Below are positions 485 to 36,046 of a stretch of 36,849 nt of DNA, piece after piece. Location of the stretch: contig JAGTRD010000019.1 of the NCBI GenBank assembly GCA_018396915.1, forward strand, positions 1-36,849, read 5' to 3'. The notes under the pieces were generated by a model. It was not told where the DNA came from. It did no database searches and saw nothing but the letters and a program-made list of their open reading frames with translations. A program made the translations under genes and the position numbers. Position 1 is the first letter of the stretch. Each line of letters opens with the position of its first letter. The stretch is from Candidatus Bathyarchaeota archaeon. GTDB lineage: Archaea; Thermoproteota; Bathyarchaeia; 40CM-2-53-6; RBG-13-38-9.

Positions 485-1771
485 ATGGTTGGTATAGATG
501 ATACAGACTCAAAGAAGGGGATGTGCACAACATACGTAGGCGCTGTAGCACATGACAGGCTAATCGAGAGAGGATTCGAACATGTAGGATACCCCAAACT
601 TGTAAGGTTGAACCCCAACTGGCACCTGAAGACAAGAGGAAACTGCGCCATATCCCTAACCTTGAACCTAGAATCTGGAGATGAGGATACGTTGAAGAAG
701 ATTGTTCTAGATACTGTTGAAGAGTATGCTGAGCTCGACTGTGAGTCAACAAATCCTGGGGTTGTATTCTATAGGGGGGAGACTGTTCCAGCTGAACTTG
801 AAGAGTTCGCTGGAAGGGTCGTTCAAGATGTTGTCGAGATCAAAGATGCTGAGGTGACCGCCAAGAAGGTAGGAGCAGAATATTACAAGTTCAAGCTTGG
901 AAGGGGCATAGTAGGAGCCCTCGCAGCCATAGGTGAAACCTTGAAGCTCGACTCAACATATGAGCTCATAGCGTATAGAAGAGCCGAGTACAGAGGTAGA
1001 AAGAGAATGGTTAGCGTTGAGAGTGTATTCGAGATGGATAGAAGAACATTCCCAAGAACATTCGACAACATAGACCCAAACACAGGTGAAGTCAGAATAA
1101 CCCCCCACACACCTTGCCCAGTCCTATTTGGAATCCGCTCCCAAGACCCAGCCTCAGCGATCGAAGCCTTCAACCTCCTAAAGGTTGGTGAACCTATCGA
1201 GAGGTGGATAATATATAGAACAAACCAGGCTACGGACGCCCACCTCACCCCAACCAAGATAAACTCACTCAAACCTTTGACCTCAGCAATCGTCGACGGA
1301 GAAGTCTCAAGGGAACCGATAGTGATTCAGGGTGGACACGTAATATTCAAGGTCAAGGACCAGACAGGGGAGATAGACTGCGCAGCCTACGAGCCTACAA
1401 GAAAATTCAGAGAGATAGTGAAACAGCTGAAGGTCGGAGACAGAGTCGTAATCTATGGTGGTGTGAAGAAGAAGCCGAACCTACCCCTAACCCTGAACCT
1501 TGAGAAGATAAGGATCATAGAGTTGAGTAAGGAATATTTGAAGAGAAACCCGAAATGTCCACTATGCGGCAGGAGGGCGAAGTCTGAGGGTAAGGGTAAA
1601 GGTTACCAGTGTGAAGTCTGCGGGAGAAAGTTCCCACCAGGATCAGAGGAGCATATCGAGATTGAAAGATCTTTGAAGCCTGGGTTCTATGAGGTCCCAC
1701 CCAGGGCCCGGAGACACTTGGCGAAACCCTTGGTCAGGCTGACTGAGGCCCAAGATTCAAGGATCATCTGA
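485..1771 (+). CDS. tiaS: tRNA(Ile2) 2-agmatinylcytidine synthetase TiaS
   Basis: TiaS joins agmatine to C34 of the CAU-anticodon isoleucine tRNA in an ATP-dependent reaction so that it reads AUA; it is archaea-specific and normally essential. The protein starts with the family signature 'VGIDDTDSKKGMCTTYVGA'. It continues through the catalytic domains, has an OB-fold near residues 280-345 ('VIFKVKDQTGEIDCAAYEP'), and ends with a zinc ribbon (CPLCG...CEVCGRKF). About 428 residues is normal for the family. The frame is open back to an ATG at 443, which overlaps the preceding gene, but family members start right at the IDDTD motif, so ATG 485 is preferred. The substrate tRNA is not in this window; the tRNA-Ile at 13.1 kb has a GAU anticodon and is not a TiaS target. 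Confidence 0.95.
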   Translation: MVGIDDTDSKKGMCTTYVGAVAHDRLIERGFEHVGYPKLVRLNPNWHLKTRGNCAISLTLNLESGDEDTLKKIVLDTVEEYAELDCESTNPGVVFYRGETVPAELEEFAGRVVQDVVEIKDAEVTAKKVGAEYYKFKLGRGIVGALAAIGETLKLDSTYELIAYRRAEYRGRKRMVSVESVFEMDRRTFPRTFDNIDPNTGEVRITPHTPCPVLFGIRSQDPASAIEAFNLLKVGEPIERWIIYRTNQATDAHLTPTKINSLKPLTSAIVDGEVSREPIVIQGGHVIFKVKDQTGEIDCAAYEPTRKFREIVKQLKVGDRVVIYGGVKKKPNLPLTLNLEKIRIIELSKEYLKRNPKCPLCGRRAKSEGKGKGYQCEVCGRKFPPGSEEHIEIERSLKPGFYEVPPRARRHLAKPLVRLTEAQDSRII

Positions 1772-1805
1772 GATCTGTGGGGACTCTGTAAGATTAGAGG
1801 GTAAA

Positions 1806-2042
1806 TTATTTACCCTCGACTATTATCATTGTGAGGGTTGACCTAACCTTGTCGAGCCTCCTTATCTTCCAAGCCACAATCTCCTTGAGCTCATCCATCG
1901 TTCCAGCTTCAACCTTAGCGACTATATCATATACGCCGTAGACCACGTAAGCCTCCTTCACATTCGGAATCTTCTTAATATCTTTCAGAACCTCACCCTC
2001 GAAACCTATCTCAGCATTCACAAGAACATATGCGGAGGGCAT
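1806..2042 (-). CDS. Stand-alone Lrp/AsnC ligand-binding (RAM) domain protein
   Basis: A 78-residue protein that covers only the alpha/beta effector-binding domain of Lrp/AsnC regulators, with no helix-turn-helix. The pattern 'AYVLVNAEIGFEGEVLKDIKKIPNVKEAYVVYGVYDIVAKVEA' followed by 'RRLDKVRSTLTMIIVE' is typical. Single-domain versions are common in archaea and form dimeric or octameric rings that may bind amino acids or mix with full-length Lrp proteins. It is convergent with tiaS (34 bases between stops) and divergent from nnr. Confidence 0.88.
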   Translation of the reverse strand: MPSAYVLVNAEIGFEGEVLKDIKKIPNVKEAYVVYGVYDIVAKVEAGTMDELKEIVAWKIRRLDKVRSTLTMIIVEGK

Positions 2043-2197
2043 ATCGATTTCACAGTATATTATGATCGGGTCTTCTGGAAATTAAGGTTTCCCACCCATA
2101 CAACTTAGAAAGCTTTTAGAGGGCAGGTGACACCCATAATTGTGTAACCTATTAAATTTGGGGTTGCCGATTCAATTCTAAACAGTAAAATTAGGCT

Positions 2198-3739
2198 ATG
2201 GGATGTCTGATGTTTAACAGTGAGGTTTACCTCACATCCACAGATGTCAGGAGGCTAGATCTAAACTCTGAATATTTAGGTGTCTTGCCACTACAATTGA
2301 TGGAGAATGCAGGCGCAGCGGTTGCAGCTGAGATCGCCTCAAGATTCAAACCTGAATCCAAGATTCTGGTTCTCGCAGGTCCAGGCAGAAACGGAGGTGA
2401 CGGAATGGTTGCAGCCCGACACCTAGCCTCAAGAGGATTCAAAGTAAACGTGATCCTTGTAGGAAGCGAGGCAAACATAAAGGACGACATAGTAAGCCAG
2501 AACTGGTCGACCCTGAAGAATATGGCATCAACAATCCAGATTCAGACAGTCACAGACTCAACCGGAATAGGAGAGTTTGAAGCCGACGTCATAGTCGACG
2601 GCCTCCTAGGCGTAGGGTTCAAGGGCCCCCTCAGACAACCTATCTTAGAAGCTGTCAGAGTCTTGAACAGGTCCAGAGGATTCAAGGTCTCGATAGATGT
2701 ACCTACAGGGGTCGACTCAGACAGCGGCGAAGTCTACGGTGAAGCTGTGAAGGCAGACCTGACAGTCACATTCCACGCCGAGAAGGCAGGCTTCAAAAAG
2801 GCGAAGGATTATCTCGGAGAGGTCAAGGTGGCGCCTATAGGGATACCTCCCGAAGCCGACTTATACACCGGTCCAGGGGATGTCGAAGCAGTTTTGAAGG
2901 TTAGGCCGGCGAAATCTAAGAAGGGCGACTACGGCAGGCTTCTAATCATAGGTGGGAGCGAGACTTACAGCGGAGCGCCGGCCCTCGTAGCTCTAGCTGC
3001 CCTCCGCTCAGGGACAGACCTAGCCTATGTCGCAGCACCATACAGAACCGCTGAAGCAATCTCTTCGATGTCGCCGAACCTCATAACGATCAAACTTGCA
3101 GGTGAACATTTCAACCAAGCCAACCTAGGCCAACTCAGAACATATATCGAGAGGGCCACAACCGTCGCCGTAGGTCCTGGGATGGGCCTCCACAAAGAAT
3201 CTGTAGAAGCCTTCAAGAAGCTTCTGCCCATACTCCAGCAATATTCCAAGCCTACACTGATAGACGCCGACGGATTGAAAGCCTTAGCCACATTTAAGGG
3301 TCAACTAGGGTTTCCAGCGGTTCTCACCCCACATGCAGGAGAATTTGAAAACCTCTCTGGAAGGAAGGCCCCAGCTGAGATTGAAGGCAGAGCCACGGAG
3401 GCAAAGACCCTTGCATGCGAGTATGGTGCAGTAATCCTTCTGAAAGGTTGGGTAGACGTAGTATCTGACGGGGTGAAGGTGAAACTTAACAGGACAGGAA
3501 ATCCAGGGATGACCGTGGGCGGAACAGGAGACGTACTCTCAGGAGTAGTCGCCGGACTGATGGCTCAAGGGGTAGACCCATTCCAAGCATCAGCTGCAGG
3601 AGCCTTCATAAACGGTGCAGCCGGAGACATAGCCTACAAGGAGTATGGCCCACACCTTACACCTACAGATCTGCTCGAGAACATCCATAAGATCATGAAT
3701 AACCCAATGATCCATAAGGACGTAAAGTATGGAGGCTGA
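2198..3739 (+). CDS. nnr: Bifunctional NAD(P)H-hydrate repair enzyme Nnr (epimerase + dehydratase)
   Basis: This fused metabolite-repair enzyme first epimerises damaged NAD(P)HX and then dehydrates it back to NAD(P)H using ADP or ATP. The N-terminal YjeF_N domain (about residues 1-215) contains 'LAGPGRNGGDGMVAARHL' and 'DGLLGVGFKGPLR'. The C-terminal ribokinase-like domain (about 230-505) contains 'IIGGSETYSGAPALVALAAL', 'VLTPHAGEFENLSG' and the anion-hole/catalytic stretch 'NPGMTVGGTGDVLSGVVAG'. At 513 residues it is full length. A second in-frame ATG at 2210 could be the real start. The gene is followed directly, in the same frame, by the Tsr3 gene. Confidence 0.95.
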   Translation: MGCLMFNSEVYLTSTDVRRLDLNSEYLGVLPLQLMENAGAAVAAEIASRFKPESKILVLAGPGRNGGDGMVAARHLASRGFKVNVILVGSEANIKDDIVSQNWSTLKNMASTIQIQTVTDSTGIGEFEADVIVDGLLGVGFKGPLRQPILEAVRVLNRSRGFKVSIDVPTGVDSDSGEVYGEAVKADLTVTFHAEKAGFKKAKDYLGEVKVAPIGIPPEADLYTGPGDVEAVLKVRPAKSKKGDYGRLLIIGGSETYSGAPALVALAALRSGTDLAYVAAPYRTAEAISSMSPNLITIKLAGEHFNQANLGQLRTYIERATTVAVGPGMGLHKESVEAFKKLLPILQQYSKPTLIDADGLKALATFKGQLGFPAVLTPHAGEFENLSGRKAPAEIEGRATEAKTLACEYGAVILLKGWVDVVSDGVKVKLNRTGNPGMTVGGTGDVLSGVVAGLMAQGVDPFQASAAGAFINGAAGDIAYKEYGPHLTPTDLLENIHKIMNNPMIHKDVKYGG

Positions 3740-5831: not shown

Positions 5832-6365
5832 TCAATACTCTATACCTTTTCTAGACTTTATCCCTCTTCTATATGGATGTTTCCTCTCAACGAACTCAGT
5901 CACATAGTCGGCGGCCTCGATGATTTCAGGCGGGCAGTCTCTGCCAGTGATCACAAGCTCCAAACCTTCAGGCTTACACCTGATCAACTCCATAACCTGC
6001 TCCAGCCTTATCATTCCAAGATTGATTGCGTGGGTCAACTCGTCCAGAATCAGTATATCACATTCACCTGTCTTAACCTTTGATACAGCTCGTTCGAAAG
6101 CCTCCTCAGCCTCCTCAATATCTTTTCTGCCAGGCTTACTCTTAATGAAATGTTTCTGACCGTAAGCTTCTATCTGGAACCCTGGAATGAGCTTAGCCGA
6201 ATACCTCTCACCATAAAGGTACCTACCCTTCAGAAACATTATCATGCAAACTTTCATTCCATGACCTGCAGCCCTCAAGGCCAAACCCAGAGCCGCCGTC
6301 GTCTTACCCTTCCCGTCGCCGGTATATACGTGGATCAGACCTTGCCTCCTGTTCATGTCAAACAA
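5832..6365 (-). CDS. cobO: Cob(I)yrinic acid a,c-diamide / corrinoid adenosyltransferase (CobO/BtuR type)
   Basis: This cytosolic enzyme transfers the adenosyl group of ATP to the cobalt of corrinoids, a step shared by de novo B12 synthesis and corrinoid salvage. It has the P-loop 'TGDGKGKTTAALGLALRAAGHG' (residues 15 onward), 'VCMIMFLKG', the Walker-B-like 'DILILDELTHAINLGM' and 'LVITGRDCPPEIIEAADYVTEF', all diagnostic for the BtuR/CobO family. It is full length at 177 residues; Met 4 (ATG 6356) is an alternative start. No other corrin-ring synthesis gene is near. Its neighbours are a DUF4430-type regulator and transcobalamin-like secreted proteins, which points to salvage. Confidence 0.95.
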   Translation of the reverse strand: MFDMNRRQGLIHVYTGDGKGKTTAALGLALRAAGHGMKVCMIMFLKGRYLYGERYSAKLIPGFQIEAYGQKHFIKSKPGRKDIEEAEEAFERAVSKVKTGECDILILDELTHAINLGMIRLEQVMELIRCKPEGLELVITGRDCPPEIIEAADYVTEFVERKHPYRRGIKSRKGIEY

Positions 6366-6478
6366 CCTTGCAACTCAAATAATTAATGAAACTCCTCGGC
6401 TTAAAATATTATATCAGCTGGACTACTGAATAATTGAATCTTGATGTGAGAATTTTTCTAAAATATATCTGAATTCAG

Positions 6479-6970
6479 TTAACGTATGTTAACAATAATC
6501 TTTTTCTCAGTTATTGGAATCAATCTCTTAAGTAGAATCTCGTCGTTATTTTTGACTTTGTAGTTGTTCATGGGTATGTCTGCGAGTCTACTATTGACTT
6601 CGTAGAGGTAGTATCCCTCCTTCCCATCTATAGAGATTAGAAGTTCGCTGTCGTTTACTCTCTTCGTTTCAACGGCGCAGGTCATCTTCAGAGCGTCTAG
6701 GACGCTGCTGCCTCTTGAAAGTTTTACATTCAATTTTTCCGCGAAGGCGTCGAATATCTCGTATATTCTGTCGCCTCTAGCTTTTAAGACGTGACTTCTT
6801 CCATATTCTTTCCTCTCGATCAGCCCCGCCTTCTCCAGGATCCTTACATGTTTGGCGGCTACTGGTACAGATATTCCTAGTCTCTTCGCCAGCGATGAGA
6901 TGTGCAGCTGGTCTTTCATCAGGGTTTTTATGATCTCTACACGTGTTTGGCTGCTTAGGGCTTTCAACAT
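6479..6970 (-). CDS. ArsR-family transcriptional regulator with DUF4430/transcobalamin-like C-terminal domain
   Basis: Residues 1-75 form a winged helix of the ArsR type ('ALSSQTRVEIIKTLM', 'ISSLAKRLGISVPVAAKHVRILEKAGLIERK'). Residues about 93-163 are not a usual ArsR tail. They read 'LLISIDGKEGYYLYEVN' then 'YKVKNNDEILL', which resembles the beta-grasp DUF4430 domain found in the two secreted proteins encoded just across the divergent promoter ('GWMYRVN...KINPNDRLLIYWG'). The inference is a repressor that senses the ligand handled by those proteins, probably a corrinoid. A 26-bp near-perfect palindrome sits between this gene and the divergent operon. The HTH call is firm; the C-terminal call rests on motif similarity by eye. 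Confidence 0.85.
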   Translation of the reverse strand: MLKALSSQTRVEIIKTLMKDQLHISSLAKRLGISVPVAAKHVRILEKAGLIERKEYGRSHVLKARGDRIYEIFDAFAEKLNVKLSRGSSVLDALKMTCAVETKRVNDSELLISIDGKEGYYLYEVNSRLADIPMNNYKVKNNDEILLKRLIPITEKKIIVNIR

Positions 6971-6990
6971 AATTCTACACCTTTTTACCC

Positions 6991-7016
6991 ATTTAGCTAA
7001 TATATATTACCTAAAT
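6991..7016. promoter_or_regulatory. 26-bp near-perfect palindrome, probable ArsR-type operator
   Basis: The left arm ATTTAGCTAATAT and right arm ATATTACCTAAAT are reverse complements at 12 of 13 positions, with no spacer. The site lies in the 94-base divergent region, about 20 bases upstream of the regulator ATG. It covers that gene's AT-rich core promoter and directly abuts the TATA box of the plus-strand operon. This is the expected position for a repressor controlling both directions. Confidence 0.7.
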
Positions 7017-7017
7017 C

Positions 7018-7030
7018 TTATATAATATTT
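7018..7030 (+). promoter_or_regulatory. TATA box of the transcobalamin-like operon
   Basis: TTATATAATATTT is a strong archaeal TATA element. Transcription would start about 25 bases downstream, near 7045-7050, right where a GGAGG ribosome binding site (7050-7054) precedes the TTG start at 7065. The leader would therefore be very short. The adjacent palindrome would let a bound repressor block TBP/TFB. Confidence 0.6.
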
Positions 7031-7064
7031 ACTAGACTGTCTAAGGGCTGGAGGCGAATAAATT

Positions 7065-9044
7065 TTGAAACTGATCAAAGGATCTTTAATGTTACTGATC
7101 CTATTAACATCTCTGGAAATAGTCTACATAATCCCCAAAGCTTCATCCTACCCATACAGCAAGACCAGCCAAGAAGTCGCCTCAGCCCTGGCATGGCTGA
7201 GAACAAACCAGACAGACAATGGAATGATAGGATCATTCGCCGTCTCATCTTGGGCAGCGATGGCCATTGCAGCCGCAGAAGGAGATCCAAACAAATGGAT
7301 GAAAAGCGAGTCGAGCCCAACATTAATCCAATATTTGAAAAGCAACAAGGCATCATTGAGTTCATGCACAGACTACAGTAGATTCATCTTGTCAATGATA
7401 GCCGCAGACATAGACCCAAAGAATGTGGATGGAGTAGACCTCATAGCTACACTCGAATCCTTCTACAACAATAATCAGTTCGGAGACCCAAACTTACTCA
7501 ATGACGATTACTGGGCAGTCATAGCCCTAATCTCCACAGGCAAATACAAGTCTGACCCAAAGATTCAGAGTGCGGTCAACTTCATAAAATCTCATCAAAA
7601 CTCGACAAACGGAGGTTGGAGCTTCGATGTGGCAGCTACATATGGACCTGACGTAGACAGCACCGCCGCAGCCATCATGGCCCTAATCTCAGCTGGCGAA
7701 AGTAGAACGTCAAACCATATAACGAACGGCCTAGCCTACATCAAATCGAAACAAGTTGCAAGCGGCGGCTTCGACGGTGGATGGGGGACAAGTGCAGAGA
7801 CAGATTCATGGGCTATACAAGCAATAGTAGCAGCAGGCCAAGATGTCACTGGACCAGACTGGACACACAGTACCAGTGGCAAGACACCTATAGACGACCT
7901 ACTCACCTTCCAGAATCCAGATGGCGGATTTAGAGACTACACTGGAAAATCAAGCGCATGGACAACATCATACGCGATCTCGGCGTTGATGGGGAAACCT
8001 TACCCGATCGTAAGAGGTGCAAGAGTGAATATCCGCATCGAAGGCCAACAATCCACAATATGGAAAGGAACGGTCTACGTAACTTGGTCGAACATCACAG
8101 AGGCTACACCTCAAGCCGGTAGGAAACATTACTATGGCCAGCCGACAGTCCTGGGAGCCCTGGACAAAGCTGCATCCGCAGCAAACTTCACTTATACTGT
8201 GGATTACTCATATGGTTCAGCCTATGTGAAAGCGATCAAAGATGAGGCGGCATCTGGTCTCAATGGTTGGCTGTTCAGAGTAAACAGCCATACAACCGGC
8301 AGTTATAGTTGTGACACATATGTGTTGAATAGTGTTTCACCGCCAGACCCCCCACACACAGATATTCTATGGTATTACGGCGGGTGGGGTGATAAGGTCC
8401 TAGGAATATCAGTCGACCGCACAACCATAAACGTCAACGAGACCATAGTAGTAACCGTCACATACTATGATGAGACAGAAGAATCTTGGCTTCCAGCAGC
8501 AGAGGCAACAGTATGGGCCGGCGCAAAATACTCAACAAACCAAAGTGGAAAAGTTCAGATTCAACTACAAAACAGTGGCACATACCAAGTATACGCCAAC
8601 AAGACAGGTTACGTCAGAAGTGACAAGATACAGGTGAGTGTTGCAGGCGGGGGAGGAACCGGCGGCGTAGATATCAAAGCAAATGTCATTCCGGCACTGG
8701 CACTTGAAGTGTCGCCTAACATTGTCGATTTCGGCACAGTCGGACCCAAGATGACAAGCCCAACATTCCAAATAACCCTAAAGAATACAGGCTCATTGAA
8801 CGGAACCATAACAGTAACTGTTACAGATCTGAACGCCACATCCTTATTCAGAGACTGCGTACAATTATCTGAGAACCCACCAGCATGGACGGCATGGGGA
8901 GGCTACCACACCTTCATCCGTGGACATAACGGAAACACGCCCGGAGAGAAGATCGTCCACATCAGACTGCAGATTCCGGAAAACTATCCGGTTGTTCCGG
9001 GGTCGAATAAAGGTAAGGTAACATTCTGGCTGGAACCGAGTTGA
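7065..9044 (+). CDS. Secreted transcobalamin/intrinsic-factor-like protein (alpha/alpha barrel + DUF4430)
   Basis: A 659-residue secreted protein. Residues 1-28 are a signal peptide. Residues about 36-315 are terpenoid-cyclase/prenyltransferase-type alpha/alpha repeats ('ALAWLRTNQTDNG', 'NFIKSHQNSTNGGWSFD', 'LLTFQNPDGGFRDY'). Residues about 318-441 match DUF4430 ('GALDKAASAANFTYTVDY', 'GWLFRVNSH', 'DILWYYGGW'). Residues 445-527 look like an Ig-type domain, and 540-657 like an ASH/CARDB beta-sandwich ('VDFGTVGP...FQITLKNTGS'). An alpha/alpha barrel followed by DUF4430 is the architecture of animal transcobalamin and intrinsic factor, which clamp B12 between the two domains. No enzymatic motif (DxDD, zinc ligands) is visible in the barrel. 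No membrane anchor is seen. The start is TTG with GGAGG 10 bases upstream. Corrinoid binding is inference. Confidence 0.82.
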   Translation: MKLIKGSLMLLILLTSLEIVYIIPKASSYPYSKTSQEVASALAWLRTNQTDNGMIGSFAVSSWAAMAIAAAEGDPNKWMKSESSPTLIQYLKSNKASLSSCTDYSRFILSMIAADIDPKNVDGVDLIATLESFYNNNQFGDPNLLNDDYWAVIALISTGKYKSDPKIQSAVNFIKSHQNSTNGGWSFDVAATYGPDVDSTAAAIMALISAGESRTSNHITNGLAYIKSKQVASGGFDGGWGTSAETDSWAIQAIVAAGQDVTGPDWTHSTSGKTPIDDLLTFQNPDGGFRDYTGKSSAWTTSYAISALMGKPYPIVRGARVNIRIEGQQSTIWKGTVYVTWSNITEATPQAGRKHYYGQPTVLGALDKAASAANFTYTVDYSYGSAYVKAIKDEAASGLNGWLFRVNSHTTGSYSCDTYVLNSVSPPDPPHTDILWYYGGWGDKVLGISVDRTTINVNETIVVTVTYYDETEESWLPAAEATVWAGAKYSTNQSGKVQIQLQNSGTYQVYANKTGYVRSDKIQVSVAGGGGTGGVDIKANVIPALALEVSPNIVDFGTVGPKMTSPTFQITLKNTGSLNGTITVTVTDLNATSLFRDCVQLSENPPAWTAWGGYHTFIRGHNGNTPGEKIVHIRLQIPENYPVVPGSNKGKVTFWLEPS

Positions 9045-9121
9045 ATCGCCGTAAAAACAGAGTATCTGGGGGATACTTGGAAAGAGTATCTCCACAGATC
9101 TTTTTTCGGAGGCTCTTAAGT

Positions 9122-11149
9122 TTGAAAGTAATGAAGGTATCTCTCACAATACTTTTCCTACTGATCCCGATAATGTTTGCTTGTTCTGAAGTTCAAGGTC
9201 TAGGTGTCGGAGTAAATCCTGCGGAACTCAATTACACAGTAAATTCGAACAACATAGTCTCCAATGAGATTTGGGTCTTCAACACAGGAGGAGGCAGAGC
9301 TAAATTCAGTCTATATTTTGACAGCCAATACCAGACGATGTTCTCATTCAACATAAATGATTTTGAGCTCAACCCAGGAAGTAGCCAGAAAGTTACTGTG
9401 AACTACGACCCATTAAAGAATAGAGCCTACACAGACCTGAACATACCGTTATATGTGAAGGCAACCGATGCGATATCCAATATGGAGTCTGGAATAAAGG
9501 TTCCTGTCAAGGTTAAACATTACTTGAGTACACAGACTATTTTCCCCCTGACCCCTACCGACCCTCAGATAGTCGCTGCTTTAAGATATCTCAGGAGTAT
9601 ACAGTGGCCTGACGGAAACATCGGCGGTTTCCATATCAGTTGCTGGGTGACTATGGCAATAGCCTCGGCAGGCCAGGACCCCCATTACTGGAGGAAAAGC
9701 AGTAGCTCCATAGTCGATTACCTCATCAAGAATAGAGGCCAGGTCGACACAATCAAGGTCACTGACATAGCGAAGTTCATCTTAGCCATGACCTCGGCGA
9801 GGGAGAATCCTAGAAACATAGGTGGGGTAGACTATGTATCTCTACTGTTGAGTAAGGAGAAGAGTGGTCAGTTCGGTGATGCAACGATGTGCAACGATGA
9901 CTTCTGGGCGATAATATCTTTAATCTCAGCTGGTATACCCTCAAACTCACAGCAGATCCAGAATTCAAGAACCTTCATTAAGAATCATCAGAATGCGGAT
10001 GGTGGATGGAGTTGGCAGGTCGGTGGACCAAGCGACGCCGACGACACGGCTGCCGCTATAATGGCTCTGATAGCGTCTGGCGAGGAGAAGAATTCACCTG
10101 CAATAGTCAAAGCTGTAAACTATTTGAAGAGCCAACTAGGTTCGAGTGGTGGATTCGTCTCTGAAGGTGTTGCAAACTCAGCATCAGACTCATGGGTTTT
10201 GATGGCCCTCGTCGCAGCGAATATAGACCCATCCAGCTCAGACTGGGTGAAGGATGGAGTAAACCCGGTAAATCATCTCATTCGATGCCAGAACTCGGAC
10301 GGATCATTCGGTTGGAGAGTCGGCGATGACGGAGATCCTTGGTGGACAGCATATGCGATTCCAGCTTTGCTGGGCAAACCCTATCCAGTCATCGCGAGCG
10401 AACTACACCCGCAGGTATATGTTAGAATAGAACATGTGAACGCCACTATCTGGAGGGGTTGGGTTGAGATCCTACCGTCGACGAATGTCACAGCCTACAA
10501 CAGCAACAAAGTCTACAATATTCAGGGCGATAATGCCCTAGCCTTGCTCGACAGAGCCTCGAGACTAGGAGGCTTCACATACCAGGTCTCAGACCAATGG
10601 TATCCCATGGGGCTATACGTCGACTCCATAGGAGGATACAAGGCGACAGGCGCATACGGATGGATGTACAGGGTGAACTATACTCTCGGGCAGGTGAGTA
10701 TGGACAAATGTAAGATAAATCCAAATGATCGACTCCTAATATACTGGGGAACATTAGGAGTTAGACCCTTAAAGGTTGAGGTAGAGCCTGTCGAGGTTCC
10801 TCTGGGCAAACCCTTCACAGTAACAGTTACCTTTCTAGACGACTCCACAGGAAAGTGGGTCACGCTCAAGAACGCCACAGTGAATGTAAACCCTAAGTAT
10901 CGGACGGACCAGGATGGGAGGGCCACCGTAACATTGACGGAGCCGAAAGTATACAACGTCTATGCTGAGAGGTGGGGTTCAACCGCCCAAGACCAGTATG
11001 TGAGAAGTGATCTAGTTCAGGTCGGGGTTGGGGTGCCAATTCCAGAATTCCAAAACATCCAAACACTCACAATAGTAATTCTCGCAGCCTTCACCATCAC
11101 ACTCCGGAGATACATCAAACAACCGACCAGTATACATCGCATTGCTTAA
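9122..11149 (+). CDS. Membrane-anchored transcobalamin-like protein with C-terminal IPEF-type anchor
   Basis: A paralogue of the preceding gene with reordered domains. Using TTG 9122, residues 1-26 are a signal peptide, about 28-140 an ASH/CARDB-like sandwich, about 143-423 the alpha/alpha repeats ('NHQNADGGWSWQVG', 'RCQNSDGSFGWRVG'), about 427-545 DUF4430 ('NALALLDRASRLGGFTYQVS', 'GWMYRVNY', 'KINPNDRLLIYWG') and 548-636 an Ig-like domain. The C-terminus is 'VPIPEF', a hydrophobic helix (about 645-661) and 'RRY', like archaeal PEF-type sorting or anchoring tails. The frame stays open back to 9041, overlapping the previous stop. GGAGG at 9108-9112, and the placement of the signal peptide, choose TTG 9122, copying the GGAGG...TTG-AAA layout of gene 1. 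It probably displays the ligand-binding module on the cell surface. Confidence 0.82.
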   Translation: MKVMKVSLTILFLLIPIMFACSEVQGLGVGVNPAELNYTVNSNNIVSNEIWVFNTGGGRAKFSLYFDSQYQTMFSFNINDFELNPGSSQKVTVNYDPLKNRAYTDLNIPLYVKATDAISNMESGIKVPVKVKHYLSTQTIFPLTPTDPQIVAALRYLRSIQWPDGNIGGFHISCWVTMAIASAGQDPHYWRKSSSSIVDYLIKNRGQVDTIKVTDIAKFILAMTSARENPRNIGGVDYVSLLLSKEKSGQFGDATMCNDDFWAIISLISAGIPSNSQQIQNSRTFIKNHQNADGGWSWQVGGPSDADDTAAAIMALIASGEEKNSPAIVKAVNYLKSQLGSSGGFVSEGVANSASDSWVLMALVAANIDPSSSDWVKDGVNPVNHLIRCQNSDGSFGWRVGDDGDPWWTAYAIPALLGKPYPVIASELHPQVYVRIEHVNATIWRGWVEILPSTNVTAYNSNKVYNIQGDNALALLDRASRLGGFTYQVSDQWYPMGLYVDSIGGYKATGAYGWMYRVNYTLGQVSMDKCKINPNDRLLIYWGTLGVRPLKVEVEPVEVPLGKPFTVTVTFLDDSTGKWVTLKNATVNVNPKYRTDQDGRATVTLTEPKVYNVYAERWGSTAQDQYVRSDLVQVGVGVPIPEFQNIQTLTIVILAAFTITLRRYIKQPTSIHRIA

Positions 11150-11181
11150 CGAACAGTAAACGTAAAGCAGAGAGTGAATGT

Positions 11182-11859
11182 TTGAGAGATCTTAGAAAAT
11201 ATCCAGTACTAATTCCAGTGATTCTATCGTCACTATTGATCATCTGCTATCCCTTATACTCCACCAATAATGAGACTGCCCAACTGTGGGGGTTAATATC
11301 TATGGCTACAGTGGTCTTTACAGTATCGACTGCGTCTCTAGAGCTTTCTCATCAAAAAGTTTCCGTCAGAGAAGTTGCCCTGATAAGTGTCTTAGGAGCC
11401 GTCACTGCAATGTTGAGGTTGCCATTCACATTCATACCGAATGTTCAACCATGCACATCCCTGATAATTTGCATAGGGATAAGCTTCGGCCCACACGCAG
11501 GATTCTTCGTAGGAGCCCTCACACCCCTAATATCTAACTTCTTCCTAGGGCACGGACCTTGGACACTCTTACAGATGTATTCTTGGGGCATGATCGGTGC
11601 CCTATCGAGTCTACTAAACAGTAATATCGGCCGCTGGAGGCTTGGGGCTGTCGGATTGTCTGCCGGTTACATGTACGGTTTCATCATGAACATATGGTTC
11701 TGTTATACTTTCCTGCAGCCCATCACACTAAACAGATTTGTGATGGCTGAACTGCAGGGATTACCCTTCGACACTATGCACGCCATAGGAAACTTCACAT
11801 TTCTAACATTGCTGGGAAAAAGAGTACTTCAAGTTTTCGACTACTTCAAAAGACTTTAA
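11182..11859 (+). CDS. ECF-type transporter substrate-binding (S) component, probably for a corrinoid
   Basis: A 225-residue membrane protein with about seven hydrophobic segments. Two lie at the N-terminus; the rest form a typical S-component core ('VREVALISVLGAVTAMLRLPFTFIP', 'PCTSLIICIGISFGPHAGFFVGALTPLISNFFLGHGPWTLLQM'). S components capture a vitamin-sized ligand and need EcfT and EcfA/A' for uptake; none of those is in the window, so this would share a module encoded elsewhere. TTG at 11182 is the best start and lies 32 bases after the previous stop, making it third in the operon. Ligand specificity is inferred from the two DUF4430 proteins upstream; S components of this general type sit beside DUF4430 proteins in bacteria. 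Confidence 0.8.
   Translation: MRDLRKYPVLIPVILSSLLIICYPLYSTNNETAQLWGLISMATVVFTVSTASLELSHQKVSVREVALISVLGAVTAMLRLPFTFIPNVQPCTSLIICIGISFGPHAGFFVGALTPLISNFFLGHGPWTLLQMYSWGMIGALSSLLNSNIGRWRLGAVGLSAGYMYGFIMNIWFCYTFLQPITLNRFVMAELQGLPFDTMHAIGNFTFLTLLGKRVLQVFDYFKRL

Positions 11860-34308: not shown

Positions 34309-36046
<1,738 letters not shown>

Follow-up and report, generated by a model that had tools for sequence, protein, structure and literature searches.

On the uptake side, the closest described system is ECF-CbrT of Lactobacillus delbrueckii (PDB entry 6FNP), a proven importer of cobalamin and cobinamide; haemin does not compete with its activity, and its gene forms part of nrdJ-cbrS-cbrT-pduO (PMC5997447). 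On the capture side, animal transcobalamin, intrinsic factor and haptocorrin are secreted proteins in which an alpha/alpha barrel precedes a beta-domain, DUF4430 being the C-terminal domain of TCN (PMC4350170). The archaeal locus described here resembled both and added a regulator of the ArsR type that itself carried a DUF4430 domain. It lies in a window of 36,849 nucleotides, the whole stretch that was analysed, which is the complete contig C19 of a Bathyarchaeia MAG (1.63 Mb, 96% complete); the closest named kin of this MAG are Candidatus Bathyarchaeota MAGs. We put at roughly 85% the probability that this locus, with its full mechanism, serves to capture, import and sense corrinoids (the B12 family). 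That it captures and takes up corrinoids is very likely, and the ArsR-DUF4430 protein is probably a corrinoid-responsive repressor.

The five genes named in the initial annotation were all recovered, at the coordinates given there, by Pfam and TIGR00708 matches (Table 1). The adenosyltransferase scored 186.8 bits against TIGR00708, above the curated equivalog cut-off of 167.75; its gene also adjoined the locus in a sister species (G001, 95% identity) and was not seen beside it in other genera. No match to the cobalamin riboswitch RF00174 was found in the window. The same contig carries an archaeal 16S rRNA gene (34310-36044) whose match is 1,735 bases long for a model of 1,478 positions, leaving some 250 bases in the gene to an intron or insertions.

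Table 1. Features of the putative corrinoid capture, import and sensing locus (window positions).
Feature	Position	Strand	Evidence or remark
CobA/BtuR-type corrinoid adenosyltransferase (predicted)	5832-6365	-	PF02572 E 3e-63; TIGR00708
Second palindrome GTTAACGTATGTTAAC	6478-6493	.	overlaps ArsR stop codon; 113 bp before cobA
ArsR-DUF4430 regulator	6479-6970	-	Pfam HTH_5 + DUF4430
Operator-like palindrome, intergenic between regulator and first capture gene	6996-7011	.	overlaps likely TATA box of regulator gene
Secreted transcobalamin-like protein 1: alpha/alpha barrel + divergent DUF4430 + Ig-like tail	7065-9044	+	
Surface transcobalamin-like protein 2: Ig-like + barrel + DUF4430 + Ig-like + C-terminal membrane segment	9122-11149 (alternative start 9041)	+	
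CbrT-like ECF S component, predicted corrinoid-binding membrane subunit	11182-11859	+	PF12822 E 8e-9

The two capture proteins are paralogues, with 39% identity over about 500 aa spanning barrel and beta-domain in their alignment. Protein 1 displayed a signal-like N-terminus (MKLIKGSLMLLILLTSL) and no C-terminal anchor was seen in its sequence, whereas protein 2 ends in a membrane segment that follows VPIPEF. A barrel joined to DUF4430 had been proposed for both. This held for protein 2, whose DUF4430 (residues 517-570, E 1.5e-6) was over the Pfam cut-off; in protein 1 the domain stayed under Pfam detection and was called because it aligns to that of protein 2. The barrel, of the alpha6/alpha6 type, was recognised by Pfam SQHop/Prenyltrans matches (SQHop_cyclase_C in protein 1, E 5e-9) and by fold matches. 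An AlphaFold model of protein 2 running from the barrel to the Ig-like domain (pLDDT 86) was searched against PDB folds, and ranks 1 to 15 were all occupied by transcobalamin, haptocorrin and intrinsic factor (E 6e-11 to 6e-8), in agreement with the structural resemblance proposed initially. TM scores were 0.33-0.37 over the query and the RMSD was about 24 A because the domains of protein 2 are placed otherwise than in holo structures; the match thus concerns parts and their order (topology) and not a closed clamp. Searches by sequence gave another picture: a profile of the capture proteins (A2) matched cyclases and prenyltransferases among PDB chains and no transcobalamin at E <= 1, and a stand-alone DUF4430 protein used as query did not find human transcobalamin in the PDB. 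Protein 2 is accordingly not claimed as a member of the transcobalamin family by sequence, but is predicted from its modelled fold to work like one. Further differences from the animal carriers are the extra Ig-like domains, the membrane anchor of protein 2 and the location of the genes in an archaeal operon together with an importer.

Could the barrel proteins be secreted enzymes of the terpene or prenyl type, or adhesins, with the S component next to them by coincidence? Their barrel is indeed closest by sequence to squalene-hopene cyclases. By fold, however, the transcobalamin family ranked above all cyclases and prenyltransferases, with about 450 aligned columns, extending beyond the barrel, against about 330, and the linkage of barrel, DUF4430 and S component was found again both in Lactobacillales and across several families of Bathyarchaeia, so that we consider this explanation highly improbable.

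Import of corrinoids is indicated by the S component. Searched against all PDB chains, its sole significant match was 6FNP_A (E 9e-12 as a single sequence, 6.6e-17 as a profile of four sequences), residues 59-223 aligning to positions 6-173; no other solved S component was significant. On the specificity of the S component, the initial annotation is thereby supported, the match being to the cobalamin S component CbrT. A transporter for another tetrapyrrole or vitamin (haem, nickel corphin or riboflavin) might be invoked, since the S component also matches a riboflavin-type family in Pfam and the barrel is common to terpene cyclases and prenyltransferases. This is very unlikely: CbrT was the only significant S component although others are in the PDB, haemin does not compete with CbrT-mediated uptake (PMC5997447), cobA lies next to the locus, and in bacteria the homologues are found beside nrdJ, an adenosyltransferase gene or queG.

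The operon in the window contained no EcfT or EcfA. Both components, which the initial annotation had asked for, were found elsewhere in the genome, as a stand-alone EcfT-EcfA-EcfA' module on contig C2 without an S component beside it; as for ECF-CbrT of L. delbrueckii, a shared (group II) ECF module is possible for the S component of the window. The two systems are also alike in their homologous S components and in an adjoining adenosyltransferase, although the latter is of the CobA type here and of the PduO type there. They differ in that the present locus is archaeal and comprises barrel capture proteins as well as a predicted ArsR-DUF4430 repressor.

Related operons were more complete. In G014, from another family of Bathyarchaeia, the regulator operon continues with DUF4430, EcfT, EcfAA and S genes, and in G040 a transcobalamin-like (TC) gene, DUF4430, EcfT, EcfAA and S form one operon. 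EcfAA and S are apparently fused in G097. A 941-aa frame (L244:6982-9807, minus strand) combines an N-terminal part of the ABC type with a C-terminal CbrT-like S component, and comes after genes for EcfT, DUF4430 and a barrel protein. Synteny was thus maintained among relatives, where the pairing of TC and S genes and the corrinoid or cobalt neighbours were kept. Lactobacillales carry the same operon: Latilactobacillus curvatus (CP117684.1, 114052-119694) encodes a barrel-LPXTG protein, DUF4430, EcfT, EcfAA and a CbrT-like S component, in the gene order of Bathyarchaeia L240 and G040. It differs from the window by its LPXTG wall anchor and its lack of ArsR-DUF4430, while EcfT and EcfA are missing from the window operon. 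Likewise, a plasmid of Lactiplantibacillus plantarum groups nrdJ, an adenosyltransferase gene, DUF4430 and S, Enterococcus gilvus groups queG, DUF4430 and S, and a cobalamin riboswitch (RF00174) adjoins EcfT-EcfA-S in Lentilactobacillus kefiri. Downstream of that riboswitch, a surface protein (DUF5776; L246:789-3134, minus strand) resembles a further barrel-type capture protein, with no match to the TC profile. Since Lactobacillales share it, the uptake architecture is not unique to archaea and its unusual character is weakened; the uptake system is the archaeal version of an unnamed Lactobacillales system.

The genome context agrees with a need for imported corrinoids. No corrin-synthesis genes occurred in the window, as had been noted, and the corrin-ring marker CbiC was found neither in this genome nor in 40 relatives (41 genomes in all), while known producers were matched in the same search. 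The genome encodes 11 B12-binding proteins, and the organism is apparently unable to build vitamin B12. The initial view of it as a scavenger is retained, except that it is not a bare one: contig C10 encodes CobD, CbiB, CobT, CbiS, CobS, CobY, BtuC and BtuD together with a class II ribonucleotide reductase, and the genome is that of a corrinoid scavenger with nucleotide-loop assembly. As the genome also has BtuCD, with this nucleotide-loop cluster on another contig, the window locus would be a second corrinoid importer here. The C10 salvage cluster is compact (L223, G000:C10:33000-47832), with the reductase gene nearby. In two near-complete relatives with a TC locus, G004 (96% complete) and G014 (98%), which have 11 and 8 B12-binding proteins, respectively, CbiC, CobS and a strong BtuC match were all absent, making the locus their best candidate corrinoid importer.

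Described gene switches for vitamin B12 include cobalamin riboswitches, which are RNA, and CarH-type proteins, which join a MerR head to a Rossmann-type B12-binding domain. The regulator of the window would share with them gene control by a B12-family molecule, but it combines an ArsR head with the transcobalamin beta-domain. A literature search found no published archaeal B12 regulator; a comparative study of 2003 reportedly predicted that archaea have a 'CBL-box' belonging to an unknown B12 regulator. The ArsR assignment made initially was correct for the N-terminal half (winged helix at residues 1-75, Pfam match at 7-52, HTH_5 E 1.6e-9, over its curated cut-off) and incomplete for the rest, as residues 87-148 matched DUF4430 (E 1.8e-6) with 28.7 bits against a curated cut-off of 23.8. 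This protein and capture protein 2 were the only two matches in a DUF4430 search of the genome. Its AlphaFold model had a pLDDT of 87, and a fold search with the whole regulator was dominated by the winged helix and uninformative on DUF4430. Profile-profile similarity of its DUF4430 to that of the capture protein was weak (E 0.0025, probability 12%), so that the assignment rests mainly on Pfam.

About 60 full-length orthologues of the regulator were found in a scan of one genome per species, all of them archaeal (Bathyarchaeota, Methanophagales, Methanosarcina, Methanimicrococcus, Pyrohabitans/Hydrothermarchaeota, Thermoplasmata and Diapherotrites); bacterial matches in that scan were essentially HTH-only. 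Among 100 relatives searched besides the genome itself, 6 had full-length orthologues. The regulators conserve a G-[YF]-Y-x-Y-E-V motif. Many of these regulators sit beside corrinoid genes. The one of UBA186 (L051) heads a complete cbi operon, cbiT-cbiL-cbiF-cbiG-cbiHC-cbiD, and faces genes for precorrin-2 dehydrogenase, the haem pathway, SUMT, cobD and cbiB. Others neighbour CbiM-EcfT-EcfA-CbiX (L072), CbiM and BtuC (L073), BtuC, BtuD and a tetrapyrrole methylase (L074, L079) or CbiM (L038, L084). In Methanosarcina (L070, L075-L078) the neighbours of the regulator are CobN and DUF2162, which suggests control of this cluster by corrinoids, and in Thermoplasmata and Diapherotrites it adjoins a TC gene together with a membrane protein of the DUF6580 type or similar to CbrT. 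Within 7 kb, corrinoid, cobalt or TC genes accompanied 33 of 65 distinct regulator loci and 1 of 17 controls (HTH-only ArsR genes of the same genomes, the single match being a generic methyltransferase; Fisher p 5e-4), a comparison biased by seed genes partly drawn from the tested loci. No corrinoid neighbours were found at the ANME-1 and Methanimicrococcus loci.

Two neighbours are recorded here for themselves. In a Thermoplasmatota MAG, a DUF6580 membrane protein with a C-terminal DUF4430 (L082:638-1684, minus strand) adjoins TC and ArsR-DUF4430 genes; DUF6580 may be another corrinoid S-component-like family. Directly downstream of the L084 regulator, opposite CbiM, lies a ThiC-family radical SAM gene (1634-2857, plus strand) whose product could be a synthase of the lower ligand (benzimidazole) instead of the ThiC for thiamine.

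The palindromic divergent promoter described earlier is real: GCTAATATATATTACC, inside ATTTAGCTAATATATATTACCTAAAT, separates the regulator from the first capture gene. It covers an A/T-rich stretch at the expected place of the regulator's TATA box, a position that would fit autorepression. Its pattern, GNTAAYNNNNRTTANC with at most one mismatch, occurred within 110 bp before the regulator at 20 of 60 loci as against a mean of 1.0 and a maximum of 3 in 100 dinucleotide shuffles, a test that was not blind because the pattern had been read off some of the tested sequences. Its constant position, mostly 31-44 bp before the start, and matches that had not been used in forming the pattern nevertheless provide independent support. 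It was present in all 8 Bathyarchaeia, 6 of 7 Thermoplasmata and both DPANN. Only next to the regulator is the motif informative. A genome-wide regulon defined by it was considered and rejected: four of the six exact sites in the 1.63 Mb genome lie in or near unrelated genes, and counts in six other genomes showed no clear excess over a reversed-pattern control. The second palindrome of Table 1, another of these six sites, is a possible second operator; it is kept with one mismatch in G001, which may be explained by coding constraint as it overlaps regulator codons.

What the regulator senses is the less secure part of the reading. Many ArsR proteins sense metals, and the uptake genes could serve corrinoids while the regulator, with a DUF4430 that serves for structure or dimerisation, responds to cobalt or another metal, to a corrin precursor or to contact with a protein. 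CbiM cobalt transporters do occur among its neighbours, and it has the beta-domain alone where animal transcobalamins use two domains. In an alignment of 55 regulators, however, there was no invariant cysteine, no conserved cysteine pair and no obvious metal site, the invariant histidines (H23 and H41) both belonging to the HTH region; neighbours also include BtuCD, a cbi operon and TC genes, and DUF4430-only proteins occur in bacterial B12 operons too. Sensing of another signal of this kind is rather unlikely. Compared with ArsR/SmtB metalloregulators, the protein shares the winged helix DNA-binding domain and a palindromic operator over the promoter (here computed only), but has a C-terminal DUF4430 and lacks conserved metal ligands. 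We somewhat favour DUF4430 as a cytoplasmic corrinoid sensor in an archaea-wide family of one-component repressors with a common palindrome, placed over uptake in scavengers and over corrin synthesis in producers.

The view of binders, importer, activating enzyme and sensor as one salvage system gained support from the fold match, the CbrT match, synteny and the presence of EcfA and EcfT. Beside what was computed (gene content, homologies, fold match, conserved operon, shared palindrome, no marker of corrin-ring synthesis), we infer the ligand of each DUF4430, the order of hand-over, the use of the shared C2 module and the sign of regulation. Outside the cell, the corrinoid would be clamped between the barrel and the DUF4430 of two exported transcobalamin-like proteins, the first apparently released and the second anchored in the membrane. 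It would then be relayed from the secreted to the anchored binder and on to the CbrT-like S component, powered by the stand-alone EcfT-EcfA-EcfA' module, and adenosylated by CobA after import. The DUF4430 of the regulator would bind incoming corrinoid, its bound or unbound state setting the grip on the palindrome over its own promoter; derepression at low corrinoid would have the capture genes expressed when the vitamin is scarce.

With these results the domain pair of human B12 carriers acquires a setting in archaea and bacteria, and one domain, the transcobalamin beta-domain, would serve a single vitamin in its capture outside the cell, its hand-over at the membrane and the control of genes. 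The sensor would be the more original result compared with the uptake side. The regulator is a concrete candidate for an archaeal B12 sensor and suggests how archaea may sense B12; if true, this would add a third kind of B12 gene switch to the riboswitches and CarH-type proteins.
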